Source: a virus. From it: a DNA stretch of 64,000 nt. The notes beneath the pieces were generated by a model. That model searched no databases, was not told the origin of the DNA, and worked only from the letters and a program-made list of their open reading frames with translations. Both the position numbers and the translations under genes were made by a program. Location of the stretch: the IMG/VR virus record IMGVR_UViG_3300028392_000050, positions 1 to 64,000 of that record; one strand, written 5' to 3'. How positions within the stretch are numbered: the stretch's first letter is position 1; each line of letters begins with the position of its first letter. Shown in pieces: positions 9,672-47,372 of the stretch.

Positions 9672-10226
9672 ATGAAAATAACTGATAATCAATTTCCAGA
9701 CCCGTGGGACAAGCACGGAGCCCCGTACGGTAAACCGTATCCACCACTTCCAAACCCGCACAGTCCAGAAGATATCTACGAAAAGTGGAAGAAGCCTGTT
9801 CCACCTAAAGTCGTTACTATTAATGACTTATTCCCTAGCCTAGACCGCTGGGCAATTGGTTGGTCACCAATTCTAGATGAATTAAAAAGTTTAGCTGCGC
9901 TAAAGCCTAGCTATCCTCCTTATGACATCATTGACCAAAAAAACGATTCCACCCTCATCAACGTCGCTGTGGCTGGGTTCACTAAAAAGGACCTTACAAT
10001 TACAGTCGAAGAAAGGACGTTGAGCATTGAAGGCACAAAAGAAGATAAAGAAGCAGAAGGAACGCTCGTTCACAATGGCATTGCTGGACGCGATTTTAAA
10101 CTCACCTTTGCCTTGGCTGAGTTTTATGAGGTAGAATCAGCCACCGTTAAAGATGGTATCTTATCGGTCAAACTCATCAAAAATGTACCTGATGAAAAGA
10201 AGCCAAAAGTCATTGATATCAAGTAA
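9672..10226 (+). CDS. Hsp20 small heat-shock protein
   Basis: Small heat-shock chaperone that holds unfolded proteins. The C-terminal half (about residues 83-180) is an alpha-crystallin domain: YDIIDQKNDSTLINVAVAGF, a strand-forming ERTLSIEG, and FKLTFALAEF followed by VKDGILSVKL. The N-terminal 80 residues are proline-rich and atypical. The usual C-terminal IxI motif may be represented by VIDIK at the end. Its leader can hide the ribosome site in a hairpin. Phage Hsp20 proteins are known, mainly from cyanophages. Confidence 0.85.
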   Translation: MKITDNQFPDPWDKHGAPYGKPYPPLPNPHSPEDIYEKWKKPVPPKVVTINDLFPSLDRWAIGWSPILDELKSLAALKPSYPPYDIIDQKNDSTLINVAVAGFTKKDLTITVEERTLSIEGTKEDKEAEGTLVHNGIAGRDFKLTFALAEFYEVESATVKDGILSVKLIKNVPDEKKPKVIDIK

Positions 10227-36808: not shown

Positions 36809-37055
36809 AAGATTTGATACTTTCTGTTAGTTGTGGGGCAGACCTCTTGCCTGACCTCTCTCTCCGAGTTTATGCGATAGGCACGACATTTCCTAGAGCC
36901 ATAAACCTAAATAAGCATTTATTAACCTATTGTTCATCTTTGCCTATAAAGTATCGGCAGCCGATAGAAATTACGGGGCTTTGCTTATTTCTTTGTTTCT
37001 ACCTCATAGAGAGAGAACTAATAGAGAGTAAGGGATAGGTGTAGCCCTAGTGACT

Positions 37056-37093
37056 AACAGGCTAGTAACTAACCAACAGGCTAGTAACTAACC
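37056..37093 (+). repeat. two tandem 19-bp repeats
   Basis: The unit AACAGGCTAGTAACTAACC occurs twice without spacing, with a partial third copy (CTAGTGACTAAC) before it. Confidence 0.9.
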
Positions 37094-37146
37094 AAGTTCG
37101 CAAGGTAGCCCACATCTGGGCTTACCCCTGCCTCTCTTTCTGTATT

Positions 37147-37164
37147 GCTAGGCAGTAGCCTAGC
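37147..37164. repeat. left flank hairpin (AGGCAGTAGCCT type)
   Basis: GCTAGGC-AGTA-GCCTAGC. A related hairpin with the same loop is at 47108-47129 on the other side of the array. Confidence 0.8.
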
Positions 37165-37193
37165 CATTACCACAGTTTCGGCTATTTAGCAAG

Positions 37194-37217
37194 GATTATA
37201 ACGAAATCGTTATAATC
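37194..37217. promoter_or_regulatory. 24-bp palindrome
   Basis: GATTATAACGA-AA-TCGTTATAATC, perfect 11-bp arms. Its right part contains AAATCGTTATAA, found again at 37280-37291 and 47191-47202. Possible operator or origin element. Confidence 0.75.
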
Positions 37218-37353
37218 TCTCTATTCGGCTCATAGCATACTCTCTCTCTATAGTCAATAGGGTATCTCTCTCTGTTATGAAATCGTTATAACCAAGATTA
37301 ACCGGCCGTTCTCTCTCTGTTAACCAGCTGTTTACTTTGGTGTGGTAAGCGTT

Positions 37354-37447
37354 TTGTTGCGTTGGTAGCCTTTTAGCCTTAACTATGCGATTGAGCGTAG
37401 CGAGCACGCACGGCACGGCTAAGGCTAAAAGGCTACCAACTCAACAA
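37354..37447. repeat. array palindrome 1 (inside-out copy)
   Basis: Arms 37354-37381 and 37420-37447 (28 bp, one mismatch) with a 38-nt loop. The constant box is present, but the 5' arm carries TTGTTGCGTTGG and the 3' arm CCAACTCAACAA, the reverse of the other copies. The inner stem carries TAGCCTTTTAGCC. Confidence 0.88.
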
Positions 37448-37460
37448 TTTCGGGTATGCG

Positions 37461-37496
37461 AAAGCCCCCAAGCCAGAGAGGGGGCTTGGGGGCTTT
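37461..37496 (-). terminator. terminator of the 37.6-39.2 kb operon
   Basis: AAAGCCCCCAAGCC and GGCTTGGGGGCTTT, 14-bp stem. A second stem GGCTGGTC/GACCAGCC lies just upstream on the minus strand (37498-37529). Confidence 0.88.
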
Positions 37497-37555
37497 GGGC
37501 TGGTCACAGAAAGGGGAAAAAGACCAGCCTATAGCGAGGTGGGACAAATCACCTG

Positions 37556-37693
37556 CTAATTCTTATGTTTTCCTTGTCTATACCACTTTAGAAAGTCGGT
37601 GGCACAGGTAATACATAGAGCAGTTGGGGCTACAGTTGGGTCTGTAAGTTGTGTTTTACAGACAAAACACTTCTTACCAGTATAACTACCCAT
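37556..37693 (-). CDS. small zinc-binding protein
   Basis: A 45-aa protein with CFVC and CITC separated by 14 residues, a zinc ribbon, and a basic end (RQGKHKN). Overlaps the upstream HTH gene by 8 bp. Last gene of its operon before the terminator. Confidence 0.6.
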   Translation of the reverse strand: MGSYTGKKCFVCKTQLTDPTVAPTALCITCATDFLKWYRQGKHKN

Positions 37694-38024
37694 TGTTATC
37701 TAGTTTCATCTTACTAGGGTCATAGATACCTAGCAAGGCGAGTAATTCATTAGGGGTCATTAGTAGAGCATAACACAGTTTAGGCAAGAAATACAAAGGC
37801 ATTGTGCCGTTTCCCTTGAGGTAATTGCCTACAGTTCCAGCAGTTACGCCAAAGTTATTACGCCTACAAAAGTCGGCTAGGGACTTATACCCTAGGCTCT
37901 TGTATCTAGCCTCTATTAGTTGTTGCTTACGCTTGCGTTCTTGGGTGTTCCAGTCGTAATAGGCTTGTATTTTCTCATAACGAGTTTCGGCTGGCTCATT
38001 TGGGTCATACTTCGGGTATTCCAT
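37686..38024 (-). CDS. Cro/CI-type helix-turn-helix regulator
   Basis: A 112-aa protein with an HTH at about residues 42-72 (LGYKSLADFCRRNNFGV; TVGNYLKGNG) and LMTPNELLALLG after it. Similar order and words to the 80-aa HTH protein at 32615-32857. Lies at the left edge of the array, so it is a candidate binder of the 11-bp repeats. Confidence 0.7.
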   Translation of the reverse strand: MEYPKYDPNEPAETRYEKIQAYYDWNTQERKRKQQLIEARYKSLGYKSLADFCRRNNFGVTAGTVGNYLKGNGTMPLYFLPKLCYALLMTPNELLALLGIYDPSKMKLDNNG

Positions 38025-38140
38025 TATTTACTCCTCATTGTAATTAGTCGTGCTTGTAGTCGGGATAGGGCAATAATGGCTTTACTTAGTAGCCTTATTG
38101 CTATGTGGCGTGGGCTTGGGTTGTATCTGTGCTTACTCAT
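38024..38140 (-). CDS. small basic peptide
   Basis: A 38-aa arginine-rich ORF (MSKHRYNPSPRHIAIRLL start) overlapping its upstream neighbour by 8 bp and sharing one base with the downstream start. Coupling pattern supports it, but it is short and unlike any known protein. Confidence 0.4.
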   Translation of the reverse strand: MSKHRYNPSPRHIAIRLLSKAIIALSRLQARLITMRSK

Positions 38141-38852
38141 TACAGCACTCCAAGTTACAGTAACCACGCAAATCCATACCTAAAGCGTGGGTGATTTCAG
38201 GCTCGTTCTCATAGAACTTATCGCCGTCTAGCCATTGAGCCTCATAAGCAAAGCAGTCGCTTTCGTCAATACTGGACAGGTTTATAGTGATGTCGGGGTA
38301 TTGGCTAGCCAAGTGGTCTAATGCCTCTACTGGTGGTGACCACGCACTTTCTAGGTGATAGGTAATCTCTAGAGAAACTGGCATAGTATCTGGGTCAGTA
38401 TCGCCCATCTCACCTGCGAGAATAGTAGGCATTTCATAGACAATAGAGGCTTCGTCTGTTATCTCCCACTTAGTTCCCCAGTTACGGCAGTTCCAGTTAT
38501 ACCAGTCGTCGCTGGTCTTGCGTTCCTCTAGTATCTTGACGAGAGCCTGATTAGCGTCAAAAGGCGTGCTGGTCTTATCAGCCTTGTCTATCTCTACCAA
38601 GTCAGGGTCAGCCTTTACAATGCTGTCAAAGGCTTTCTTACCCCTCTCTAGGTAGGTATCAAGGTTACTAGGCTTTACTATGTTCCATAGCAAGAATACT
38701 CCCTCAACCTGCTCGGCTGGGGTAGGTTCGCCTTTCCAGTTAGTTTCTCCAGCCCAAGGTGTAGTATAAGGCTTAGCAAGCCTATCCTTTATTGCCATTA
38801 CTGTATCGTAGTCACCAACGATAGTGACTTTACTGCTAGCCCAATTCGGCAT
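38133..38852 (-). CDS. DUF1281/Api92-like protein
   Basis: A 239-aa protein starting MPNWASSKVTIVGD and containing WYNWNCRNWGTKWE, the signature of the Api92/YubB ferredoxin-like family found on phages and plasmids. Biochemical role unknown. The start overlaps the upstream stop (GAGGAGAACGACTAATG junction). Confidence 0.75.
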   Translation of the reverse strand: MPNWASSKVTIVGDYDTVMAIKDRLAKPYTTPWAGETNWKGEPTPAEQVEGVFLLWNIVKPSNLDTYLERGKKAFDSIVKADPDLVEIDKADKTSTPFDANQALVKILEERKTSDDWYNWNCRNWGTKWEITDEASIVYEMPTILAGEMGDTDPDTMPVSLEITYHLESAWSPPVEALDHLASQYPDITINLSSIDESDCFAYEAQWLDGDKFYENEPEITHALGMDLRGYCNLECCNE

Positions 38853-38959
38853 TAGTCGTTCTCCTCAATACAAGTGTGGTTATTCCAGTCTTGTTCGGCT
38901 GTGTCAGAATAGTTATCCACTATAAATCCACAATGGTTACATTTAGTCCAGCGTGCCAT
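38852..38959 (-). CDS. tiny zinc-finger protein
   Basis: A 35-aa protein with C-x2-C ... H-x-C spacing (CNHCGF ... NNHTC), likely zinc-binding. Ends EEND with the ribosome site for the next gene embedded in those codons. Starts in the same 17-bp junction sequence. Confidence 0.55.
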   Translation of the reverse strand: MARWTKCNHCGFIVDNYSDTAEQDWNNHTCIEEND

Positions 38960-39210
38960 TAGTCGTTCTCCTCTTTCTGTTTGATAAGGAACTCTAGGTC
39001 ATCAGCAAGTTCATACCCAGTCTGGGTGAACTCAATGTGACCTGATAGTGTTTGCTGTGCCTCTCCAATGAACTCTGACCATACTCTCTCTACATCTGCT
39101 CTATCTAAGCCTGTATCTACAAAGTAGGTCTTGTCCCAATACTCCACAATGATTTCATCATCTAGAGCATTGTCTTTTAGTATCTGTGCGATTAGGTCTT
39201 TTACCTTCAT
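38959..39210 (-). CDS. hypothetical acidic protein
   Basis: An 83-aa acidic protein (MKVKDLIAQILKDNALDDE start) ending EEND. First gene of its operon, with 11-bp repeats and palindrome 2 upstream and a TATAAA-like -10 near 39243. No family recognised. Confidence 0.65.
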   Translation of the reverse strand: MKVKDLIAQILKDNALDDEIIVEYWDKTYFVDTGLDRADVERVWSEFIGEAQQTLSGHIEFTQTGYELADDLEFLIKQKEEND

Positions 39211-39289
39211 CTCTCAATTCCTTTCTGTGAATTGTAATACGAGTTTATACCTATCTCTCTCTAAATAGCAACTCTCCTGCGTGTATTCC

Positions 39290-39322
39290 AGGTAAACATT
39301 AGATGAACAACAGGTGAACAGC
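39290..39322 (-). repeat. 11-bp repeats, cassette a
   Basis: Three contiguous units (plus strand AGGTAAACATT, AGATGAACAAC, AGGTGAACAGC) ending 4 bp from palindrome 2. Confidence 0.88.
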
Positions 39323-39326
39323 CCTG

Positions 39327-39401
39327 CCAACTCAACAATTTAGCCATTTAGCCATCCGACGATCCGGAGAAGATGGCTAAATGGCTAAATTGTTGAGTTG
39401 G
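39327..39401. repeat. array palindrome 2
   Basis: Perfect 30-bp arms (39327-39356, 39372-39401), 15-nt loop containing GATC. Outer box CCAACTCAACAA; inner stem carries TTAGCCATTTAGCC. Confidence 0.95.
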
Positions 39402-39402
39402 G

Positions 39403-39442
39403 AAAGCCCCCTAGCGTGATGAATGAAACGCTAGGGGGCTTT
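39403..39442 (-). terminator. terminator next to palindrome 2
   Basis: AAAGCCCCCTAGCG and CGCTAGGGGGCTTT; the stem begins two bases after the palindrome. Confidence 0.88.
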
Positions 39443-39471
39443 TATGCCAGAGAACCAGTCTGGCTTGGGTT

Positions 39472-39501
39472 GAGGGGCTGGGCTGGGAGAACCAGCCCCT
39501 C
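39472..39501 (-). terminator. hairpin after the gene at 39513
   Basis: GAGGGGCTGG and CCAGCCCCTC, 10-bp stem, directly downstream of the stop on the minus strand. Confidence 0.7.
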
Positions 39502-39512
39502 AAGTCTGTTGG

Positions 39513-40073
39513 TTAGTCTACCTCTACCTCTGTGTCGGAAATGTCAAATCCGTAACCAGCCTCGTCAAGGTCGCTGTTGGTAACGGTAGCTTCGGCTGTA
39601 ATGTTTAGGTCGCTCTCAATGTCGTCCCAGTCATAACCTCTAGGGGCTGTTACCTCTAGTGAGCCAGTAATGGTAATGTTTACTGTCTTAGTGACTTCTG
39701 CCTCAATGTCAAAGATTTCGCATAGTTCGTCACGAACTTCCTCGTCAATGTCGTTCCAGTTGTCGTCAAGAAATGTCTCAAGTTTGGTGACTTTCCTGAT
39801 TAGTTCCTGCCACTTCACATACCACTCTTGCTTTTCGGTTTCTAAGCTTTTTAGGTTTTTGTGTAGGTGAGTGAGTTCGTGGCGAATAGTTACCTTGTCG
39901 CCCCCAGTTACCCAGCCGTTATCTATGTAGCCATAGAACTTTACTTCTAGGTCTAAGACATCTGCTAGTGGCTTTACTGGTGTTGTTGCTAGTTCGGTCA
40001 GACCTGCCTCTGCGAGTTTTTCCTCAACAGTTAGTTCTGGCTTTGGTTCTTGGTTCTCTTGGTTCTCATACAT
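39513..40073 (-). CDS. hypothetical coiled-coil protein
   Basis: A 186-aa acidic protein. Residues 60-115 are heptad-like (LTHLHKNLKSLETEKQEW), and a beta-rich acidic C-terminus follows (VNITITGSLEVTAP). Start taken at MYENQENQ after the common AGAAAGAGAG leader; an upstream in-frame extension would read through palindrome 3. Single-gene cassette. Confidence 0.65.
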   Translation of the reverse strand: MYENQENQEPKPELTVEEKLAEAGLTELATTPVKPLADVLDLEVKFYGYIDNGWVTGGDKVTIRHELTHLHKNLKSLETEKQEWYVKWQELIRKVTKLETFLDDNWNDIDEEVRDELCEIFDIEAEVTKTVNITITGSLEVTAPRGYDWDDIESDLNITAEATVTNSDLDEAGYGFDISDTEVEVD

Positions 40074-40164
40074 AGTAATCTCTCTTTCTGTAGGTTGTGT
40101 ATTGCTATGTATTACTATTATGGCAGTTGGGGGTGGCAAAACCCAAATCCTAGAGGCAAACTCT

Positions 40165-40197
40165 AAGTAAAGCTTTTGTGAACAACAGGTAAACGGA
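40165..40197 (-). repeat. 11-bp repeats, cassette b
   Basis: AAGTAAAGCTT, TTGTGAACAAC and AGGTAAACGGA in phase, 4 bp from palindrome 3; GATC overlaps the last unit. Confidence 0.75.
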
Positions 40198-40201
40198 TCT
40201 C

Positions 40202-40268
40202 CCAACTCAACAAAGCCCAAAGCCCGATCTTTATTAGGGGCTTCGGGCTTTGGGCTTTGTTGAGTTGG
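40202..40268. repeat. array palindrome 3
   Basis: Perfect 26-bp arms (40202-40227, 40243-40268), 15-nt loop. Inner stem AGCCCAAAGCCCGA. Confidence 0.95.
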
Positions 40269-40278
40269 CACGAAAAAA

Positions 40279-40313
40279 CCCCCCAGCGAGAACCTTGGGA
40301 GTTCGCTGGGGGG
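40279..40313 (-). terminator. terminator next to palindrome 3
   Basis: CCCCCCAGCGA and TCGCTGGGGGG, with six A at 40273-40278 forming the U run on the minus strand. Confidence 0.92.
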
Positions 40314-40352
40314 CTGGTATTATCGGGCTAGACACCAACACACCCGATAAGT

Positions 40353-40703
40353 CTAACTAGGCTGGTGAGCCTCTGGCTCTACCTCTACCCACTCGCCGTC
40401 TATGAACTGTTTTTCGTTCACTAACTCACTAATAGCCCCTGAGTATAGGTCATAGTAAAAGGCGTATAAATCAACCTTTTGTAAATCCTCTATTGTTTCG
40501 GCACTGTCATAGCCAAACTCTTTCCACCTGTTTTGATACTCAAAGTCTAGGCTAGCCCAGTCTAATTGAATGTTAGCCGTATAAACTGGAACTGCTCCGT
40601 CGGCGTATTCGTGAGCGATGTCCTCGGGATAAGGTCGCCCTAAAATCCACTCTCGGTTATCCCAGATTTCTTGGTTGATTTCTGTTTCTGTCCAAAGTGC
40701 CAT
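40353..40703 (-). CDS. hypothetical protein, paralog of the gene at 42682
   Basis: A 116-aa acidic protein beginning MALWTETEINQEI. The block YPEDIAHEYADGAVPVY corresponds to YPQDLAGEYADSGVPVW in the protein at 42682-43050, and both share length and order. Single-gene cassette with the AGAAAGAGAGAACCA leader. Function unknown. Confidence 0.7.
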   Translation of the reverse strand: MALWTETEINQEIWDNREWILGRPYPEDIAHEYADGAVPVYTANIQLDWASLDFEYQNRWKEFGYDSAETIEDLQKVDLYAFYYDLYSGAISELVNEKQFIDGEWVEVEPEAHQPS

Positions 40704-40778
40704 TTGCTGGTTCTCTCTTTCTGTTTGGTGTAGCCCCTTTGGCTACTCTCTTATACTAATGCCACCTAATGACTTATT

Positions 40779-40822
40779 AGGTAGCGAGCTGATGAATGTC
40801 AGGTTAATATTAGGTAAACGGA
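40779..40822 (-). repeat. 11-bp repeats, cassette c
   Basis: Four contiguous units: AGGTAGCGAGC, TGATGAATGTC, AGGTTAATATT, AGGTAAACGGA; 5 bp from palindrome 4. Confidence 0.85.
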
Positions 40823-40827
40823 TCAAG

Positions 40828-40902
40828 CCAACTCAACAAAAGCCATTTAGCCAACCCTCTTATCTAGTGGGTGTTATGGCTAAATGGCTTTTGTTGAGTT
40901 GG
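40828..40902. repeat. array palindrome 4
   Basis: Perfect 26-bp arms (40828-40853, 40877-40902), 23-nt loop with its own ACCC/GGGT pairing. Inner stem AAGCCATTTAGCCA, resembling palindrome 2. Confidence 0.95.
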
Positions 40903-40908
40903 CAAAAA

Positions 40909-40936
40909 CCCCCTAGCAAGTCAGGTTGCTAGGGGG
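40909..40936 (-). terminator. terminator next to palindrome 4
   Basis: CCCCCTAGCAA and TTGCTAGGGGG, preceded by five A that give the minus-strand U run. Confidence 0.92.
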
Positions 40937-40951
40937 CTGGTCTTTGCCGGT

Positions 40952-41317
40952 TTATCCGTAAGTCAGTTCACCGAAAATCGCATACTGGATAACCATATCG
41001 CCAAAGCAAGCGTCAGCGTCCTCAATGTCTAGGGAGTAAGTGCCACAGTGCTTCTGCCCTGCGTTTAGAGCCAACTGGTATCCCTTTGCTAGTTGCGCTA
41101 GCGTAACGGTGTGCCACTTGTCTTCTTCCTCGTCATACAACTTAAAGTCCTGTGGGTTAGGCTCGTAGTCTGGCAAGTGCCAAAGGCTAATCTTGCTACC
41201 ATCAGGCTTACGGATTTTACTCGCCCAGTAGGTAATACCTGCGCCATCACAGCCCCAGATACCTTCCCACAAATCATCAAGCGAAACCTCTACGCTTACA
41301 GTGATTACCTCGCTCAT
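40952..41317 (-). CDS. hypothetical protein
   Basis: A 121-aa protein starting MSEVITVSVEVSLDDLW, containing GIWGCDGAGITYWASK and a C-terminal DADACFGDMVIQYA. The pattern recalls small phage proteins of unknown role. Second gene of a two-gene cassette, coupled by TAATG to the upstream 35-aa gene. Confidence 0.65.
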   Translation of the reverse strand: MSEVITVSVEVSLDDLWEGIWGCDGAGITYWASKIRKPDGSKISLWHLPDYEPNPQDFKLYDEEEDKWHTVTLAQLAKGYQLALNAGQKHCGTYSLDIEDADACFGDMVIQYAIFGELTYG

Positions 41318-41424
41318 TAGTATCCTGCCTTTTCTAGAATAGCAAGCACAGTATCTACCTGCTCGTCGGTTAGTTTCTCTATTGCTTCGGTGTTGATTAC
41401 ACTCTCGCCGAATAGATTTTCCAT
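41317..41424 (-). CDS. tiny hypothetical protein
   Basis: A 35-aa helical acidic protein (MENLFGESVINTEAIEKL start) with the common AGAAAGAGAGAACCA leader right before ATG. First gene of its cassette. Confidence 0.55.
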   Translation of the reverse strand: MENLFGESVINTEAIEKLTDEQVDTVLAILEKAGY

Positions 41425-41492
41425 TGGTTCTCTCTTTCTTTTAGGTAGCCCTTTTGGCTACATACTCACTCTATACCACAGGCGACCAGACA

Positions 41493-41536
41493 AGGTAGCC
41501 GGTGAGTAAATGGCAAATGAACGTTAGGTGAACAAA
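41493..41536 (-). repeat. 11-bp repeats, cassette d
   Basis: AGGTAGCCGGT, GAGTAAATGGC, AAATGAACGTT, AGGTGAACAAA; 4 bp from palindrome 5. Confidence 0.85.
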
Positions 41537-41540
41537 GCAG

Positions 41541-41613
41541 CCAACTCAACAAATAGCCAACAGCCATACATCCGATCAGGATTAGTATGGCTGTTGGCTA
41601 TTTGTTGAGTTGG
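41541..41613. repeat. array palindrome 5
   Basis: Perfect 29-bp arms (41541-41569, 41585-41613), 15-nt loop with GATC. Inner stem ATAGCCAACAGCCATAC. Confidence 0.95.
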
Positions 41614-41621
41614 CATAAAAA

Positions 41622-41655
41622 AGCCCCAGAGCGAAAGGGGGGTCGCTCTGGGGCT
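41622..41655 (-). terminator. terminator next to palindrome 5
   Basis: AGCCCCAGAGCGA and TCGCTCTGGGGCT with an A run at 41616-41622. Confidence 0.92.
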
Positions 41656-41682
41656 GTGGTTAGAGTAGGGAAATGAGAGAAC

Positions 41683-41937
41683 CTACTCTAAGTTTGTTTC
41701 GTTGTTTAGTATGTAAAGCACATACAAAGTTTCTGTTTTTTCTGTATGAACAAAAGTATACTTAGGAAACTTTCTGCGTAAATAAGTTATTTCGGTTCGC
41801 TTTACAGGGTTATTGTAAATAGCCCATTGGTTCGGGTGTTTTGTAAGTTCTGTTAGAAACGGCTCAATGTTTCTAATAGTGCTTCCTGCTCTGCCTTTTT
41901 TTGGAACTAGGCTTTCGTCAATAAACTTGATTTCCAT
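41683..41937 (-). CDS. hypothetical basic protein
   Basis: An 84-aa protein (MEIKFIDESLVPKKGRAGS start) with a strand-helix pattern WAIYNNPVKRTEITYLRRKF, resembling short phage proteins of unknown fold. Third gene of a coupled three-gene cassette. Confidence 0.6.
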   Translation of the reverse strand: MEIKFIDESLVPKKGRAGSTIRNIEPFLTELTKHPNQWAIYNNPVKRTEITYLRRKFPKYTFVHTEKTETLYVLYILNNETNLE

Positions 41938-42131
41938 TAGTTTTCCTCCTCATTTTCGCCAAAGGCTTCTCTGGCTTCTTCCATTAGACCCATAGCATCT
42001 CGTAACGCTTGGTCTAGGCTGGTGAAACCCTGTATCCTAATCGGCTCAATAGGTTCTAAGCCTTTGTAGTCGTTACAGGTTGGGCATACTGCTTGCTCGG
42101 TGTGTGTTCCGTCAAATACACAAACGCTCAT
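41937..42131 (-). CDS. hypothetical protein with cysteine pair
   Basis: A 64-aa acidic protein with CVF and CPTCND (possible half zinc site) and a helix ALRDAMGLMEEAREAFGEN. Both ends use the TAATG overlap. Confidence 0.6.
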   Translation of the reverse strand: MSVCVFDGTHTEQAVCPTCNDYKGLEPIEPIRIQGFTSLDQALRDAMGLMEEAREAFGENEEEN

Positions 42132-42409
42132 TAGTTCTCCTCATCCTCGATAATGGTGTTATTGGTGTTGTCTGGCTCGTCGTGAGGTTCGCCACACTCA
42201 TCACATTTTTCTTCACGACACTCAAAGCAAGAGCCGTCTAGGTCTAGTTCTCGTTCGCAACCTCCACAGACCTCTTCGAAGTCGATAGACTCGGTGCCAG
42301 AGTAGTAAGAGTTCAGGTCAGACAAAAACGCCTTCTCTGCCTCTTCTTGTGTGTTGCCTTCTACTACACCCTCGTATTCATAGAGGGCTTTGATTTTGTA
42401 AAATGCCAT
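42131..42409 (-). CDS. acidic zinc-ribbon protein
   Basis: A 92-aa protein: N-terminal beta-helix unit (MAFYKIKALYEYEG), then CGGC, CFEC and CDEC cysteine pairs, and a disordered acidic tail. Start taken at MAFYK behind the AGAAAGAGAGAACCA-type leader; an upstream in-frame ATG lies inside that leader region. Confidence 0.65.
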   Translation of the reverse strand: MAFYKIKALYEYEGVVEGNTQEEAEKAFLSDLNSYYSGTESIDFEEVCGGCERELDLDGSCFECREEKCDECGEPHDEPDNTNNTIIEDEEN

Positions 42410-42484
42410 TTGGTTCTCTCTTTCGTTTCTCATTTATGTAGCCTTTTGACTACTCTCTAATACTAGGGTATAGGGCACGCCCAC

Positions 42485-42528
42485 AGGTAGCCGTCAGGTA
42501 AAAGCCAGATGAACAACAGATGAACAGA
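42485..42528 (-). repeat. 11-bp repeats, cassette e
   Basis: AGGTAGCCGTC, AGGTAAAAGCC, AGATGAACAAC, AGATGAACAGA; 5 bp from palindrome 6, with GATC at the boundary. Confidence 0.9.
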
Positions 42529-42533
42529 TCGCC

Positions 42534-42600
42534 CCAACTCAACAAACAACAGCCAGCCAGCTTTTATATAGCTTTGGCTGGCTGTTGTTTGTTGAGTTGG
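42534..42600. repeat. array palindrome 6
   Basis: Perfect 26-bp arms (42534-42559, 42575-42600), 15-nt loop. Inner stem ACAACAGCCAGCCA. Confidence 0.95.
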
Positions 42601-42609
42601 CAAGAAAAA

Positions 42610-42640
42610 GCCCCCCTGCTCCTAGATTTAGCAGGGGGGC
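42610..42640 (-). terminator. terminator next to palindrome 6
   Basis: GCCCCCCTGC and GCAGGGGGGC with an A run (42605-42609). Confidence 0.9.
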
Positions 42641-42681
42641 GGTGTTGGCGAGGGGATGAATGGAAACCTCACCAAGTCTAT

Positions 42682-43050
42682 TTAGTCCTCGCCGAAGAAC
42701 TCCTCGGCTGTGAGGGTGTGAGAGCGTTGAGTTTCTTTGATACGCTCCTGCTCATCACGCTCCTTAACTAACGCCTCAATTTCGGTGTAATAGTGTTCTT
42801 GGTAATAAATCCAGAGGTCAAGGTGCATTAGGGTATAAATGCTGTCTGGCAGAGTGTCGGTCATTTCATTAAACCTATTTAGATACTCAGTAGGTAATGA
42901 GCGCCACTCGTCTAGGATTTCACTGTGCCACACTGGCACGCCACTATCGGCGTATTCACCTGCCAAGTCTTGTGGATAAGTCTGCTCCAATAGGTATTCT
43001 TTATCAGCTAAGATTTCTGCCTTAAACTGCTCTGGTGTATAAAGTGCCAT
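42682..43050 (-). CDS. hypothetical protein, paralog of the gene at 40353
   Basis: A 122-aa acidic protein (MALYTPEQFKAEIL start) with YPQDLAGEYADSGVPVW aligning with the product of 40353-40703. C-terminus diverges (LTAEEFFGED). Single-gene cassette. Confidence 0.7.
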   Translation of the reverse strand: MALYTPEQFKAEILADKEYLLEQTYPQDLAGEYADSGVPVWHSEILDEWRSLPTEYLNRFNEMTDTLPDSIYTLMHLDLWIYYQEHYYTEIEALVKERDEQERIKETQRSHTLTAEEFFGED

Positions 43051-43124
43051 TTTGTAGTTCTCTTTCTCTCAATTTGTAGCCCCTTTGACTACTCTCTAAC
43101 TCTACACCCCTAGGGGGACTTACT

Positions 43125-43168
43125 AGGTAGCGACGAGGTGAATGTCAAATGAACAGCAAGTGAACAGA
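43125..43168 (-). repeat. 11-bp repeats, cassette f
   Basis: AGGTAGCGACG, AGGTGAATGTC, AAATGAACAGC, AAGTGAACAGA; 5 bp from palindrome 7. Confidence 0.9.
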
Positions 43169-43173
43169 TCGCT

Positions 43174-43243
43174 CCAACTCAACAAAGCCACAAAGCCATA
43201 CACCGATCTAGGTAAGTATGGCTTTGTGGCTTTGTTGAGTTGG
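43174..43243. repeat. array palindrome 7
   Basis: Perfect 28-bp arms (43174-43201, 43216-43243), 14-nt loop with GATC. Inner stem AGCCACAAAGCCATAC. Confidence 0.95.
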
Positions 43244-43252
43244 CATAAGAAA

Positions 43253-43280
43253 ACTCCCCTGCCAGTTTCGGCAGGGGAGT
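43253..43280 (-). terminator. terminator next to palindrome 7
   Basis: ACTCCCCTGCC and GGCAGGGGAGT, 11-bp stem. Confidence 0.85.
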
Positions 43281-43300
43281 CCTTTTCTTGAGAGAGAAAC

Positions 43301-43879
43301 TTATCCCTCGACCTCGAGCAATACCTCGAAGCCGTATGCGTCTTTTATCCAATCAGCGTTTAGCGTGAATAACTTTTCTACAACCTCAGAATAACCGAAA
43401 TCTTCATCAGTAATCCACTCAGTTCTAGTTTCGCCGTCATTGGCAGTAAATACCTTAGCGTATTCTACGCTAACCCGATAAACCTCACCAGCGAACCTAG
43501 CGTCAAAATCCTCAGCGACAGACTCTAATCCCTTAGCATTCCATTCCTTTCTCAAGTCATAGATAACCATTGTGTGCCATTCGCCTTGACTAAATCCCTT
43601 TAGTCCATAGATAAGGAACGGAATACCCTCGCCTGTGAAGTAATCGCTAACGGCGTCCTCAATTAGAGTGCCGTCCGAAACAATTTCCTCAATTTCAGTC
43701 TTGGCGTCATCATCAGTGGAATAACGGGTGAAGTTGTTTGGAGCGTGGAGTGTCTGAACGCCTAAGCCAATATTGCGAGCAACCTGATCGATAGTGTCAT
43801 AGTCCTCTTCATAATCAGCAACAACTCTCACGCTTGGGCTAATTTGGAATACTTGTTCTCTTTTTGTTTCTACTAACAT
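43301..43879 (-). CDS. hypothetical acidic protein
   Basis: A 192-aa acidic alpha/beta protein (MLVETKREQVFQISPSVRVV start; FLIYGLKGFSQGEWHTMVIY in the centre; WITDEDFGYSEVVEKLF later). Leader GAGAGAGTAGTAATT differs slightly from the common form. No family recognised. Confidence 0.65.
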   Translation of the reverse strand: MLVETKREQVFQISPSVRVVADYEEDYDTIDQVARNIGLGVQTLHAPNNFTRYSTDDDAKTEIEEIVSDGTLIEDAVSDYFTGEGIPFLIYGLKGFSQGEWHTMVIYDLRKEWNAKGLESVAEDFDARFAGEVYRVSVEYAKVFTANDGETRTEWITDEDFGYSEVVEKLFTLNADWIKDAYGFEVLLEVEG

Positions 43880-43954
43880 AATTACTACTCTCTCTTGTGA
43901 GCAAGTCCTCTGTGCCTTGCTTCACTTACTACAATACACCACGCCAAGCGTGTT

Positions 43955-43998
43955 AGCTAAACGCTAGGTTGATGTTAGGTGAACACTAGGTGAATAAG
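43955..43998 (-). repeat. 11-bp repeats, cassette g
   Basis: AGCTAAACGCT, AGGTTGATGTT, AGGTGAACACT, AGGTGAATAAG; 4 bp from palindrome 8. Confidence 0.85.
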
Positions 43999-44002
43999 CC
44001 TG

Positions 44003-44075
44003 CCAACTCAACAAATTAGCTAATTAGCCGATCTAAGGTTACACCGGCGGCTAATTAGCTAATTTGTTGAGTTGG
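44003..44075. repeat. array palindrome 8
   Basis: Perfect 28-bp arms (44003-44030, 44048-44075), 17-nt loop; GATC at the stem-loop border. Inner stem ATTAGCTAATTAGCCG. Confidence 0.95.
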
Positions 44076-44080
44076 CGCAA

Positions 44081-44118
44081 AGTTCACCCACTGTTCATCT
44101 CTGAACAGCAGGTGAACT
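44081..44118. repeat. hairpin built from inverted 11-bp repeats
   Basis: AGTTCACCCACTGTTCA and TGAACAGCAGGTGAACT (17-bp arms, two mismatches, 4-nt loop). It stands where other cassettes have a GC-rich terminator. Confidence 0.8.
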
Positions 44119-44129
44119 CTGGCTGAACT

Positions 44130-44423
44130 TTAGTCCTCTGCTGGCACGCCGTTCTGGTAGTCCTCAATGCTGTCGTAAGATACGCCCTCAACTCTAATTG
44201 CCCCGTGGCTGTGGATGAGGTAATCAGTTTCACTTGACATCATAAGAACTTGCTGGAGGTTAGCAATTAGAGTTCTAGCCGCTTCACGGGTAATCTCAAC
44301 CTGAACTGCTGACGGCTGAACTAGCCCGTCCTCTAGGTGATAGAGGTTGCGAATGGTTAGGCTAATGTCAGCGTTTCCAGTGTGTCTGCTATCATTTAGC
44401 AGGATGTTAGTTTCTACTCTCAC
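44130..44423 (-). CDS. hypothetical protein
   Basis: A 97-aa protein with a GTG start directly after the AGAACCAA leader (MRVETNILLNDSRHTG). Beta-rich (ISLTIRNLYHL; VQVEITREAARTLIANL). No terminator; the inverted-repeat hairpin follows its stop. Confidence 0.65.
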   Translation of the reverse strand: MRVETNILLNDSRHTGNADISLTIRNLYHLEDGLVQPSAVQVEITREAARTLIANLQQVLMMSSETDYLIHSHGAIRVEGVSYDSIEDYQNGVPAED

Positions 44424-44499
44424 TTGGTTCTCTTTCTATTTTGGGCAAACTCTCTTGGTTTGCCTCACTTACTAACTTACAGGATTACACCTAAACAAT

Positions 44500-44532
44500 A
44501 GGTATTAGTTTGATGAACGGCAGATGAATTAA
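44500..44532 (-). repeat. 11-bp repeats, cassette h
   Basis: AGGTATTAGTT, TGATGAACGGC, AGATGAATTAA, followed by inverted copies (TGTTAACCTAG, GGTTCACC) up to palindrome 9. Confidence 0.75.
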
Positions 44533-44570
44533 GAATTAACCTGCTGTTAACCTAGGGTTCACCCCCCGTT

Positions 44571-44632
44571 CAACTCAACAAAATAGCTGGCAACAAACAA
44601 CGTTGCCTAGCTATTTTAAATTGTTGAGTTGG
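44571..44632. repeat. array palindrome 9 (imperfect)
   Basis: CAACTCAACAA and TTGTTGAGTTGG boxes close a stem with AATAGCTGGCAAC versus GTTGCCTAGCTATT; the 3' arm has an extra TTTAA bulge and the 5' arm lacks the first C of the box. Confidence 0.85.
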
Positions 44633-44636
44633 CGGC

Positions 44637-44669
44637 TGTTCACCAAAAGTTCATCTAATGTTAACTTTC
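44637..44669 (+). repeat. inverted 11-bp repeats on the other side of palindrome 9
   Basis: TGTTCACCAAA, AGTTCATCTAA, TGTTAACTTTC: three units in the opposite orientation, so this palindrome is flanked on both sides. Confidence 0.8.
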
Positions 44670-44678
44670 CCCGAAGGG

Positions 44679-44704
44679 AGGAGGGCTGGTTTCCCAGCCC
44701 TCCT
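44679..44704 (-). terminator. terminator after the gene at 44710
   Basis: AGGAGGGCTGG-TTTC-CCAGCCCTCCT, 11-bp stem, no long U run. Confidence 0.75.
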
Positions 44705-44709
44705 GTTTG

Positions 44710-45069
44710 CTAAGCTTCTAGCCCTGCGATTACCTGTTCTTTGGTATCTGTTGGTTCTACCCCTGGCTTGCTGTAATCAGCAAGTAGGCAATCCTCATCA
44801 CAGATAACTCTAACCTGTGCCCTGCTCCACAGCCCTTGGTGAGTATTACACCACCAATCAAATCCGTCTGCCTTGTCGCCTGTAAAGTAATCGCTTAGGT
44901 TTCTGTCCAAGGCTGGTATCCAAATTTCTGGGAATTTCCAAGGCTTTTCCAAGGCATAAGTATCAAACTTTAAACCTCGTGCCTTGTAAGCGTTTAGAAT
45001 TGAGCCGATTAGGTTGAGTAGTTCTAATGAACCTAGTTCATCAATTCTTTCTAGATAACTTTTTTCCAT
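44710..45069 (-). CDS. hypothetical protein
   Basis: A 119-aa protein (MEKSYLERIDELGSLELLN start) with WWCNTHQGLWSRAQVRVICD. Its leader is AAGGACAAACAAATG, the same as the 34-aa gene at 46545-46649, and different from the AGAGAGAACCA leader. Downstream gene of a two-gene cassette. Confidence 0.65.
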   Translation of the reverse strand: MEKSYLERIDELGSLELLNLIGSILNAYKARGLKFDTYALEKPWKFPEIWIPALDRNLSDYFTGDKADGFDWWCNTHQGLWSRAQVRVICDEDCLLADYSKPGVEPTDTKEQVIAGLEA

Positions 45070-45096
45070 TTGTTTGTCCTTCTTGTTTGGAGGTTT

Positions 45097-45116
45097 GGGG
45101 GAGGTTGCCCTCCCCC
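45097..45116 (-). terminator. internal hairpin of a two-gene cassette
   Basis: GGGGGAGG-TTGC-CCTCCCCC between the genes at 45130 and 45069. The surrounding 60 bp resemble 46646-46710. No U run, so possibly an attenuator. Confidence 0.7.
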
Positions 45117-45129
45117 GTCGCCTGTTTGA

Positions 45130-45396
45130 TTAGTTAGTTCTAGTGGTTAGGGAAATTGGAAATTGTGAGTAAGTTCCCTCAGTACAATAGGTTAGTTTTC
45201 CCCAAGGTGTGTGGATAGAGTAGTTGTATCCCTCGCAGTTAGGCTCGTGGTTCTTGTCGCAGTTTGTCTCCAAGTCAATTTTTACGGGTTCTACAAACTC
45301 AATGTGGTTATTTTCCCAAATTGCCATTACATAGCCATACCATAGTTCATTTTCTGGTCCAGAGGTAATGTGTTGTTCGGTAATTCTAATTTCCAT
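45130..45396 (-). CDS. hypothetical protein
   Basis: An 88-aa protein (MEIRITEQHITSGPENELWY start) with CDKNHEPNCEGY and a C-terminal WGKLTYCTEG. AGAGAGAACCA leader. No family recognised. Confidence 0.6.
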   Translation of the reverse strand: MEIRITEQHITSGPENELWYGYVMAIWENNHIEFVEPVKIDLETNCDKNHEPNCEGYNYSIHTPWGKLTYCTEGTYSQFPISLTTRTN

Positions 45397-45483
45397 TTTG
45401 GTTCTCTCTCTAATCTGGAGAGGTTCTCTTGCCCTCTCTCAATTACTACATTACAGGATACTTATTTGGATCTATACCAATTC

Positions 45484-45526
45484 AGATGAACGTCAGGTAA
45501 ATTAATTGTTCACCTAATGTTCACCT
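45484..45526 (-). repeat. 11-bp repeats, cassette i
   Basis: AGATGAACGTC, AGGTAAATTAA, then inverted TTGTTCACCTA and ATGTTCACCTA, forming an inverted array beside palindrome 10. Confidence 0.85.
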
Positions 45527-45535
45527 AACCCCCCG

Positions 45536-45622
45536 CCAACTCAACAATTTATGGCAACGAAGTTGCCTATAAATTGTCAAAAAAGCCTGTTAGCTATGCT
45601 ACAGGCTTTTTTGTTGAGTTGG
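45536..45622. repeat. array palindrome 10 (two inner hairpins)
   Basis: Boxes CCAACTCAACAA and TTGTTGAGTTGG enclose two adjacent hairpins: CAATTTATGGCAAC/GTTGCCTATAAATTG and AAAAAAGCCTGT/ACAGGCTTTTTT. The second looks like a complete terminator inside the palindrome. Confidence 0.9.
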
Positions 45623-45631
45623 CAAGGCTTA

Positions 45632-45654
45632 GCCAGCCGGGGTCTCCGGCTGGC
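45632..45654 (-). terminator. hairpin after the gene at 45669
   Basis: GCCAGCCGG and CCGGCTGGC, 9-bp stem; U run supplied only by the hairpin within palindrome 10. Confidence 0.7.
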
Positions 45655-45668
45655 TTGCCTAATCCCTC

Positions 45669-45998
45669 CTAGTGTCCTGACTTGTAGAGTTCTAGATACT
45701 GCTCAATGGCTTGGAGCAAAGCGTTGTGGTTGCCCTCGTAGCGTTCCACTAGATACGCAAAACGCTTAGCCCAAAGTTTGCGGCGTTCGTCTTGGATGTA
45801 GTAAACGGCAGCTGAATAGCCCTGCTCCTCTAGAGTGTGGTAGCCGACATCTTCGCAAGTCCAGCAAGCGTTTTCCATGTCGTAGCCAGCAGTGAACTTG
45901 CCGTGGCAGCAAGAGCCTTGGGCGATACGCTCACGCAAGTATGCGATTTGAGCGTTCTTGACGGCAATGGCTTCACGGGCGATTTGTGCGTTTAGCAT
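45669..45998 (-). CDS. hypothetical helical protein with cysteines
   Basis: A 109-aa protein: N-terminal helix (MLNAQIAREAIAVKNAQIAY), CCHG and CWTC in the centre, and a C-terminal helix (LVERYEGNHNALLQAIEQYL). AGAGAGAACCA leader. No family recognised. Confidence 0.6.
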   Translation of the reverse strand: MLNAQIAREAIAVKNAQIAYLRERIAQGSCCHGKFTAGYDMENACWTCEDVGYHTLEEQGYSAAVYYIQDERRKLWAKRFAYLVERYEGNHNALLQAIEQYLELYKSGH

Positions 45999-46078
45999 TT
46001 GGTTCTCTCTACACCCACGCCCCTTGCGTGGTGTGTCCTCTCAGTCTAGCAACCTAGAAATAGATCACCCTCTCTCTA

Positions 46079-46132
46079 AGATGAACACTTGGCAAACAAC
46101 TTAGATCATTTTTATTCATCTAATGTTCACCT
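46079..46132 (-). repeat. 11-bp repeats, cassette j
   Basis: AGATGAACACT and TGGCAAACAAC, then inverted TTATTCATCTA and ATGTTCACCTA next to palindrome 11. More degenerate than other copies; two GATC sites lie in or near it. Confidence 0.7.
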
Positions 46133-46138
46133 AGGGGC

Positions 46139-46232
46139 CCAACTCAACAAAGGCTATTGACAGCAAAGCTGCCTAATAGCCTTATAATACCTAGGCTATG
46201 TATATCATAGCCAGGTATTATTGTTGAGTTGG
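46139..46232. repeat. array palindrome 11 (two inner hairpins)
   Basis: Boxes CCAACTCAACAA (46139-46150) and TTGTTGAGTTGG (46221-46232) enclose AGGCTATTGACAGC/GCTGCCTAATAGCCT and ATAATACCTAGGCTATG/CATAGCCAGGTATTAT. Confidence 0.9.
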
Positions 46233-46266
46233 CGAGGGTCTCCTCTGCTCCCCGAGAACGCCAAGA

Positions 46267-46290
46267 CCAGCCCCCATCGCTGGGGGCTGG
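46267..46290 (-). terminator. hairpin after the gene at 46303
   Basis: CCAGCCCCCA-TCGC-TGGGGGCTGG, 10-bp stem. Confidence 0.75.
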
Positions 46291-46302
46291 CTGGCTGATT
46301 AC

Positions 46303-46548
46303 TTACATAACTTTGTGTCCGCAATCACACTTTTCATCGTGGTCGCCACCCAGTGAGCCTTCTGGCAAGCCTAGACTACGCTCCAACAAGTCTAGCCCAG
46401 TCCAGAAGGACTCACGCCATCCTGGGCTGTCATCCCAGTCCTGTTGGTGATAGTAGTCTAGAGCATACTCTATCTCGTTCACTAACTGATTAGCGGTTTT
46501 TGTAATTGGCTGGTCGGATAGGGTTGCCCAGATTTGTTCTTTTATCAT
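46303..46548 (-). CDS. hypothetical protein
   Basis: An 81-aa acidic protein (MIKEQIWATLSDQPITKTAN start) with helices and a C-terminal C-D-C-G-H cluster. ATG overlaps the stop of the upstream 34-aa gene (ATGA). Confidence 0.6.
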   Translation of the reverse strand: MIKEQIWATLSDQPITKTANQLVNEIEYALDYYHQQDWDDSPGWRESFWTGLDLLERSLGLPEGSLGGDHDEKCDCGHKVM

Positions 46549-46649
46549 TTTGTGTCCTTATCTATTAGGTGATCTTGTGTGTATTGGTAAAGCCTGCCTA
46601 GTAAAAATGATACTACTAAGCCTAGTACTACAAGCCAGTGTGTTGGCAT
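46545..46649 (-). CDS. tiny membrane protein
   Basis: A 34-aa protein with a transmembrane helix (LVVLGLVVSFLLG) and a charged tail. AAGGACAAACAA leader. Coupled to the downstream gene by ATGA. Confidence 0.5.
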   Translation of the reverse strand: MPTHWLVVLGLVVSFLLGRLYQYTQDHLIDKDTK

Positions 46650-46675
46650 TTGTTTGTCCTTTGTTTAGGGGTTCA

Positions 46676-46695
46676 GGGGGGGATTGCTCCCCCCC
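46676..46695 (-). terminator. internal G/C hairpin
   Basis: Seven G and seven C separated by ATTGCT, between genes at 46709 and 46649. Same junction layout as 45097-45116, including the downstream GTCGCCTGTTTG. Confidence 0.7.
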
Positions 46696-46708
46696 GTCGC
46701 CTGTTTGT

Positions 46709-46903
46709 TTATTCTGCTGGTTCTACTTTAGCCAAGGTGATTAGTACTGTGATTAGTTCTTGGCGTTCTGCTGGTGTTAGTTCCAATGCGATTTCCACAA
46801 CTGTACCAGAGCCGTTAGCCCCGAGAGTGTGAACTAGCAGGTTGAACATTCCCTTGTCGCCGAAGGTGAAACCCCCGAAGGTATAACGCTTTACATTTTC
46901 CAT
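46709..46903 (-). CDS. hypothetical protein
   Basis: A 64-aa protein (MENVKRYTFGGFTFGDKGM start) with LELTPAERQELITVLITL. Start taken at MENVKR after AAAGGGGCAAC; it is the first gene of the array on the right-hand side. Confidence 0.6.
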   Translation of the reverse strand: MENVKRYTFGGFTFGDKGMFNLLVHTLGANGSGTVVEIALELTPAERQELITVLITLAKVEPAE

Positions 46904-46962
46904 TTTGTTGCCCCTTTGTTTTGTGTGAGCCTTGTTGCTCACAAATACAGACTAAGGCTCTT

Positions 46963-47073
46963 AGGTAAACAAACAATGCTAGTTAGGTGAACGTCAGGTG
47001 AACAATTCCAAGATCGTTAGGTTAACAGCAGGTGAACAGGGGGGGTAGGTTAGGTGAACGCCAGGTAAACAGG
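46963..47073 (-). repeat. 11-bp repeats, right edge (seven units)
   Basis: AGGTAAACAAA, AGGTGAACGTC, AGGTGAACAAT, AGGTTAACAGC, AGGTGAACAGG, AGGTGAACGCC and AGGTAAACAGG; the last four keep an 11-bp phase from 47019 to 47073. Confidence 0.88.
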
Positions 47074-47107
47074 CCGGCAGGACGCAGATACGATTGACGA
47101 CCCAAAA

Positions 47108-47129
47108 AAGTTAGGCAGTAGCCTAACTT
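47108..47129. repeat. right flank hairpin (AGGCAGTAGCCT type)
   Basis: AAGTTAGGC-AGTA-GCCTAACTT. Shares loop and core stem with 37147-37164. Confidence 0.8.
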
Positions 47130-47372
47130 CGTGCCCAAAGGGCGGGGGGAGGCGGCGCAGCCGTTACGGCTTCGTTACCAAATCGTTACTAAATCGTTAT
47201 AATTCAAATCACCACGTGCTATGCAAACTGTATTAAATATTTGATTATCTCTTTGTTTTAATAGGAATACCTATTTAGCAGTGCTAGCTGCGCCGCCCTA
47301 TGCAAAAATTACCCTCTGGATATTCTCAGCAATTAATGCTATAATCACCCACTTATCATTTATACTAAAGTA

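Follow-up and report, generated by a model that had tools for sequence, protein, structure and literature searches.

Eleven palindromes, sharing an outer box that is constant within the genome and differing in an inner stem that is private to each copy, separate the small cassettes of a leftward gene array in the IMG/VR virus record IMGVR_UViG_3300028392_000050; the window analysed here comprises positions 1-64000 of this 87,293-bp record. Taken together, their features point to constant-box, private-stem palindromes being a new kind of DNA-level spacer. Judging from the sequence, the best-supported reading, albeit a tentative one, is that they would serve as insulating DNA spacers between tandem cassettes.

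Palindromes at the cassette boundaries

All eleven palindromes were located at positions 37354-46232, where the initial annotation had placed them. When at most 2 mismatches are allowed, the window contains 30 matches to the 12-bp box versus 6.6 in shuffled sequences (standard deviation 2.5, maximum 14), which is far above chance. The shared outer box described in that annotation is therefore real, but the description had missed the reversed box of palindrome 1 and the three-way structures of palindromes 10 and 11. Its figures for palindromes 2-8 were borne out, the perfect arms measuring 26-30 bp and the loops 14-17 nt, except one of 23 nt. In the rest of the window no inverted repeat has more than 18 bp of perfect arm, the one exception being palindrome 1 with its inner arms of 21 bp.

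The same palindromes are found again in metagenome contigs of independent origin (L005, 99.98% identity; L010, 100%), and relatives carry altered yet still perfect versions of them. Since the same sequences occur in independent contigs, the palindromes are not assembly chimeras; an assembly artefact and chance were both rejected on these grounds and on that of the box excess over shuffles. Contig ends fall inside palindromes in L005, G004, G006, L013 and L070. Short-read assemblies break in palindromes, so that such arrays are probably under-reported.

Followed along transcription, a junction consists of a gene, a terminator-like hairpin, the palindrome, 7-8 bp, tandem 11-bp operator repeats, a promoter-like region (predicted from sequence) and a start codon. 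The array, its palindromes and one example of each neighbouring element are as follows.

37686..46942, minus strand: leftward array of small genes, about 11 transcription units, with a palindrome per tandem boundary
37354..37447, no strand: palindrome 1, reverse architecture (outside-left TTGTTG.GTTGG), perfect inner arms of 21 bp, one box mismatch; upstream of the MoxR/vWA operon; kept in the relative G003 and 11 other genomes
39327..39401, no strand: palindrome 2, 30-bp perfect arms, loop 15 nt; G003 ortholog rewritten on both arms
40202..40268, no strand: palindrome 3, 26-bp perfect arms, loop 15 nt; G003 ortholog rewritten on both arms
40828..40902, no strand: palindrome 4, 26-bp perfect arms, loop 23 nt; G003 copy identical
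41541..41613, no strand: palindrome 5, 29-bp perfect arms, loop 15 nt; G003 ortholog rewritten on both arms
42534..42600, no strand: palindrome 6, 26-bp perfect arms, loop 15 nt
43174..43243, no strand: palindrome 7, 28-bp perfect arms, loop 14 nt
44003..44075, no strand: palindrome 8, 28-bp perfect arms, loop 17 nt
44570..44632, no strand: palindrome 9, degenerate outer pair/box; single inner hairpin with stem GGCAAC/GTTGCC
45536..45622, no strand: palindrome 10, box plus two hairpins (three-way junction), the second hairpin terminator-like
46139..46232, no strand: palindrome 11, box plus two hairpins (three-way junction); G006 ortholog (L036:1008-1099) of the same architecture
39403..39442, minus strand: terminator-like hairpin (example), 15-bp arms, abutting a palindrome
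39291..39319, minus strand: PHO-like operator repeats (example) at an 11-bp step, GTTCACCTGTT GTTCATCTAAT GTTTACC, 7 bp away from the palindrome 2 box

A palindrome is present at 11 of the 11 tandem transcription-unit boundaries of the window and in none of the 6 within-operon gaps. The divergent start of the array (46943-47372) has no palindrome, and the same holds for relatives G2, G6, G12 and L070. Palindromes 2-11 lie 112-146 bp before the start codon (the small open reading frame starting near 41428 being taken as the first gene for palindrome 5), and palindrome 1 lies 545 bp before it. The initial annotation had placed the palindromes after the terminator of one cassette and before the promoter of the next, and this arrangement proves to be general: among 88 distinct palindromes collected from related viral contigs, 83 have a terminator-like hairpin just upstream, and phased operators follow downstream. 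Several contigs retrieved with looser box patterns (L053, L055, L057, L063, L067, L068, L071-L073) were dropped, as no palindrome in them passed the stem filter. At the palindrome 8 boundary (window 44082-44120; also L008 near 5070) there is no GC-rich terminator, and a hairpin of inverted PHO-like repeats (GTTCACC...GGTGAAC) stands in that place.

The sequence downstream of the palindromes has an 11-bp periodicity, the mean self-match at lag 11 being 11.2 of 18, as compared to 7.2-8.1 at lags 7-10 and 12-15. In the window the repeats are of the GTTCACC type, the unit of the direct repeats of PhoP in Streptomyces coelicolor (PMC4415409); the two-unit pattern has 34 matches versus 4.9 expected, most of them in 36.9-47.1 kb, and the operators span 36921-47070. 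Other phages carry GTTAC/GTTAT units at the same 11-bp step, fitting the GlnR box GTnAC-n6-GTnAC (PMC10704036); a similar direct-repeat site is known for MtrA (PMC5650626). The putative operator class, PhoP-like versus GlnR-like, is exchanged between related phages. These matches suggest that the cassettes are under host phosphate or nitrogen response regulators, the assignment being one of consensus match and the binding putative. No gene for an OmpR-type regulator was found in the record.

In the window, 11-bp-step GTTAC/GTTAT repeats (37274-37291 and 47163-47202) flank the array on the outside, the inner operators being PHO-like. A looser AGAGAGAACC word precedes several window starts, and a perfect 19-bp tandem repeat (AACAGGCTAGTAACTAACC, 2.1 copies) lies at 37056-37095 in the long leader of the MoxR/vWA operon. 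In four palindromes of relatives (L037:1557-1650, L058:6568-6665, L058:7378-7473 and L074:1171-1256) operator repeats (GTTATCAAATCGTTATAA or GTAAACAACAGGTAAACA) make up the inner stem itself and are mirrored on both arms.

Boxes, stems and concerted change of the arms

Three architectures are found among the palindromes: forward, with CCAAC outside-left; reverse, with TTGTT outside-left and in most cases an apical hairpin plus a AGCNGTTT-like bulge; and box plus two hairpins. Palindrome 1, with its box reversed (TTGTTGcGTTGG outside-left), represents the second of these, which is common in relatives. The arms are mostly perfect and 24-31 bp long, the perfectly paired inner stem accounts for 13-19 bp, and box-to-box spacing ranges from about 40 to 90 bp. 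The box differs between phages, mostly with both arms changed (TTGTTGAGTTGG, TTGTTAGGTTGG, TTGTTGGGTTGG, TTGTTGTGTTGG, TTGTTACGTTGG). In L070 (IMGVR_UViG_3300032240_001607), TTGTTACGTTGG is found in six reverse palindromes and TTGTTGAGTTGG in the two-hairpin forward ones; boxes are therefore homogenised within an architecture and not genome-wide. Forward palindromes often have CCGAC for CCAAC at one outer end, never at both (L006:1305/2255, L036:2, L041:2363/3784, L037:1557, L058:6568, L064:4549/6634, L070:7374/8646); in L006 and L041 a single cassette lies between two altered ends that face each other.

Every inner arm is built from a private 7-8-mer that occurs twice in tandem. Word similarity is higher within one arm than across arms (the observed mean was reached in 0 of 2000 permutations), suggesting slippage or copying along an arm besides copying between arms. 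When the same stem was looked for in anchored runs of at least 12, none of 109 comparisons within genomes and 20 of 1355 between genomes gave a match; this privacy of stems within a genome is suggestive only, the between-genome figure being inflated by orthologous junctions. From phage to phage, inner stems turn up again in front of different genes. One of them, AGCCCAAAGCCC, precedes different genes in the window phage (W), G4 and G6, and the idea that conserved stems travel with one cassette was accordingly rejected.

How the arms change is best followed between the window phage and G003, a 91%-identical relative with five orthologous junctions. The two phages have exactly the same palindrome 4, and their copies of palindrome 1 are nearly identical. 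The interiors of palindromes 2, 3 and 5, conversely, have diverged by 38, 21 and 26%, respectively, through substitutions and indels on both arms, with pairing intact. The boxes of palindromes 2-5 are unchanged, and that of palindrome 1 has a one-base difference on one side; the 8 bases next to the box have changed, and most flanks of the rewritten palindromes differ by 3-14%, one by 26%. The new tips resemble tips at other junctions, and tips have therefore been exchanged. At other orthologous junctions a reverse palindrome in one genome is matched by a forward one in another.

The MoxR-proximal junction could be compared in 13 genomes, where 339 of 351 cells are Watson-Crick, 2 are GT, 1 is AC and 9 are other combinations. 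Two or more Watson-Crick types occur in 13 of the 27 pairs, and re-dealing the right arm, a shuffle that keeps sequence relatedness, gave at most 299 Watson-Crick cells versus the 339 observed. The proposal of the initial annotation that both arms change together, by templated copying, by selection on the hairpin or by both, is upheld by the rewritten interiors; uncompensated inner-stem changes at orthologous junctions, which that annotation had named as evidence to the contrary, were sought and not found. Template switching that turns quasi-palindromes perfect is an established type of mutation (PMC3820800), and the structure of long inverted repeats in nematodes is reported to be conserved above their sequence (PMC1803023). 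A search of the literature for perfect phage palindromes with compensatory change turned up no described match.

Over the stems of the 88 palindromes, oriented by transcription, there are 2246 Watson-Crick pairs, 23 A.C, 19 G.T and 18 other combinations. Selection on an RNA structure would be expected to leave more G.T than A.C. Because G.T is not favoured in the stems, pairing appears to be kept at the DNA level, and the sequences point to templated copying, selection or both as the means. The terminators adjacent to the palindromes in the same genomes have 1061 Watson-Crick and 79 GU pairs among 1157 cells; since terminator scoring admits GU, the contrast between 0.8% G.T in the palindrome stems and 6.8% GU in the terminators is an upper estimate, whereas the equality of G.T and A.C in the palindromes is independent of scoring.

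Possible roles of the junctions

Of the roles named in the initial annotation, cassette exchange, insulation and replication, the observations bear on the first two. The palindromes may act as hairpin or cruciform spacers at the DNA level between tandem, separately regulated cassettes. Each would insulate the promoter that follows it, for instance by halting polymerase that reads through or by absorbing supercoils, and each cassette would thereby answer to its own operator only. The arms would be kept identical by copying one from the other through intrastrand template switching, assisted by selection for a hairpin of such size; the inner stems would drift freely, since only their self-pairing would matter, and tips would be swapped between palindromes via short-homology recombination. 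We lean towards insulation because of the strict placing of palindromes at tandem boundaries, never within operons and not at the divergent start.

Several points weigh against it. The promoter positions are themselves derived from sequence. A role driven by supercoils alone fits poorly with the divergent promoter region, where negative supercoils would peak and no palindrome is present. Templated copying alone would yield perfect arms without any function, and the contrast with terminators is, as said, an upper estimate. Finally, the constancy of the box suggests recognition by a protein, and a spacer does not require one.

A more far-reaching version, which we regard as rather doubtful, takes the hairpin array as structural joints between independently regulated cassettes, with private self-complementary 'keys' and a genome-wide 'lock' box: the keys would stop junctions from pairing or recombining, and arm-to-arm copying would keep the hairpins perfect. 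If true, such a key/lock array would be a genome-organising element selected for its DNA structure and without a described counterpart. The junctions also offer a clear natural case in which the arms of long palindromes change together at the DNA level, with adjacent terminators as built-in RNA controls. Two questions become testable on them: whether it is through copying or through selection that cells keep palindromes perfect, and by what means phages separate the many small, individually regulated genes of one array.

The strongest rival to insulation, though in our estimation an unlikely one, is that the palindromes are points of cassette exchange, at which folded DNA or short boxes would serve as joints in the manner of attC sites but through homologous or strand-annealing recombination. 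Cassette families do shift in order and presence as whole units (for example c1, c7, c8/c6 and c3 in W, G3, G6, L058 and L064), swaps of palindrome type and of tips are seen at orthologous junctions, the phage has genes for a UvsX-like recombinase, a Cas4-type exonuclease and a RuvC-like resolvase, and GTTGAGT / ACTCAAC fit the attC core GTTRRRY / RYYYAAC (PMC3053210). With a palindrome at every boundary, however, palindrome-bounded swaps are expected under any model, and where identity between the window phage and G003 drops from 90% to 74%, at about 41,940, it does so inside a cassette and not at a palindrome. The perfect arms lack the extrahelical bases that attC needs. Furthermore, the 87-kb record contains neither a Y1 transposase (PF01797) nor a tyrosine recombinase (PF00589, with a positive control in 14 of 14 genomes), an enzyme that the host might nevertheless encode.

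It is improbable, in our view, that the palindromes function as RNA hairpins, be it as back-up terminators or as RNase III-type processing sites in read-through transcripts. They directly follow terminators, the second hairpin of palindrome 10 is terminator-like, and a 26-30-bp stem would be very stable as RNA (-46 to -56 kcal/mol for palindromes 2-8). That G.T is no commoner than A.C in the stems, whereas adjacent terminators contain GU, speaks against this, as does the position between terminator and operators; the asymmetric tip of the reverse type occurs in either orientation (9 sense, 11 antisense), and an Rfam scan gave no family at gathering score, the only hits being sub-threshold microRNA-like chance matches.

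Equally improbable is a duplex protein-binding site, with a phage or host dimer on the two inverted boxes and the private stem as a mere spacer. A box constant within a genome and variable between phages (TTGTTGAG and AG, GG, GT and AC variants) is what co-evolving operators would produce, and the few inner stems that contain operator repeats (those at L037:1557, L058:6568, L058:7378 and L074:1171) are in keeping with it, but a spacer would need no self-complementarity and the distance between boxes is far from fixed.

Least probable are selfish or neutral palindromic elements akin to repetitive extragenic palindromes (REP) or miniature inverted-repeat transposable elements, spread and perfected by copying without benefit to the phage: template switching by itself keeps arms identical, interiors move between junctions and non-autonomous elements need no transposase in cis, but the palindromes occupy a fixed site at every tandem boundary, 7-8 bp from the window operators and usually close to them in relatives, are absent from the inside of window operons, have stable arm and loop sizes, and keep the box constant per genome while adjacent bases change.

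Phage setting and known elements

The record encodes DnaB, a family A DNA polymerase, a B12-type ribonucleotide reductase and a terminase; a gene for an Hsp20-type small heat shock protein (PHROG 432) lies at 9672-10226 of the window. Its nearest named relatives are actinophages, the terminase being 54% identical to that of Streptomyces phage BRock and the MoxR-type AAA protein about 43% to those of Gordonia and Brevibacterium phages, and the phage carrying the array is probably actinobacterial. There are no near relatives at the DNA level among annotated phages. Such palindromes are absent from the stretches fetched from phages that share the terminase or MoxR (about 50 kb each of Cantare from Brevibacterium and of GMA6 and Gray from Gordonia; 100 kb of BRock), and the bacterial genomes searched contained no box pair and no MoxR relative.

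Some properties of intrinsic terminators are shared by the palindromes, namely a GC-containing hairpin at gene ends. In the junctions, however, a separate terminator adjoins the palindrome, the box follows the stem, most copies are without a T tract, and G.T is as rare as A.C. REP elements and bacterial interspersed mosaic elements (BIME) are likewise repeated extragenic palindromes near gene ends (PMC8266576, PMC3733652); REPs are 20-40 bp long, carry a GTAG or CGTC tag at one end and have a cognate TnpA-REP (Y1 transposase), whereas here the flanking bases vary, the box alone is common to the copies and PF01797 is absent from the record.

Each cassette of an integron has one attC site, in which inverse core and core enclose a palindrome whose sequence and length vary (PMC3053210). 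The attC core is fitted by ACTCAAC/GTTGAGT and not by the boxes GTTGTGT (L027) and GTTACGT (L070). In contrast to attC sites, the palindromes have no integrase in the record, no extrahelical bases (palindromes 2-8 being perfect) and two opposite box orientations; moreover, attC follows a promoterless gene, while the palindromes precede a promoter-like region. The dyad repeats of 17-18 bp in Cluster O and Cluster EG phages resemble the palindromes in forming many intergenic copies of a short inverted repeat, but their arms are short and constant, with neither a private stem nor concerted change.

The closest known element is the extended start-associated sequence (ESAS) of Cluster K mycobacteriophages, whose defining features the palindromes lack. 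ESAS, present also in Cluster EF Microbacterium phages, are intergenic inverted repeats of unknown function (PMC3203893; PMC7302621). Like the palindromes, they occur among the non-structural genes, with one copy for each gene or operon, and are constant within a genome while their consensus differs between phage groups. They are, however, imperfect 17-bp repeats with a 4-13 bp spacer, unlike the longer, mostly perfect arms with a private inner stem described here, and they adjoin a 13-bp start-associated sequence at the start codon, whereas the palindromes stand well upstream of it, beyond the operator array. Because attC, REP and intrinsic terminators fail the tested features, and because ESAS is short, imperfect, attached to the start codon and without a private stem, we place the palindromes with the actinophage intergenic inverted-repeat families, among which they possibly represent a categorically new mechanism.

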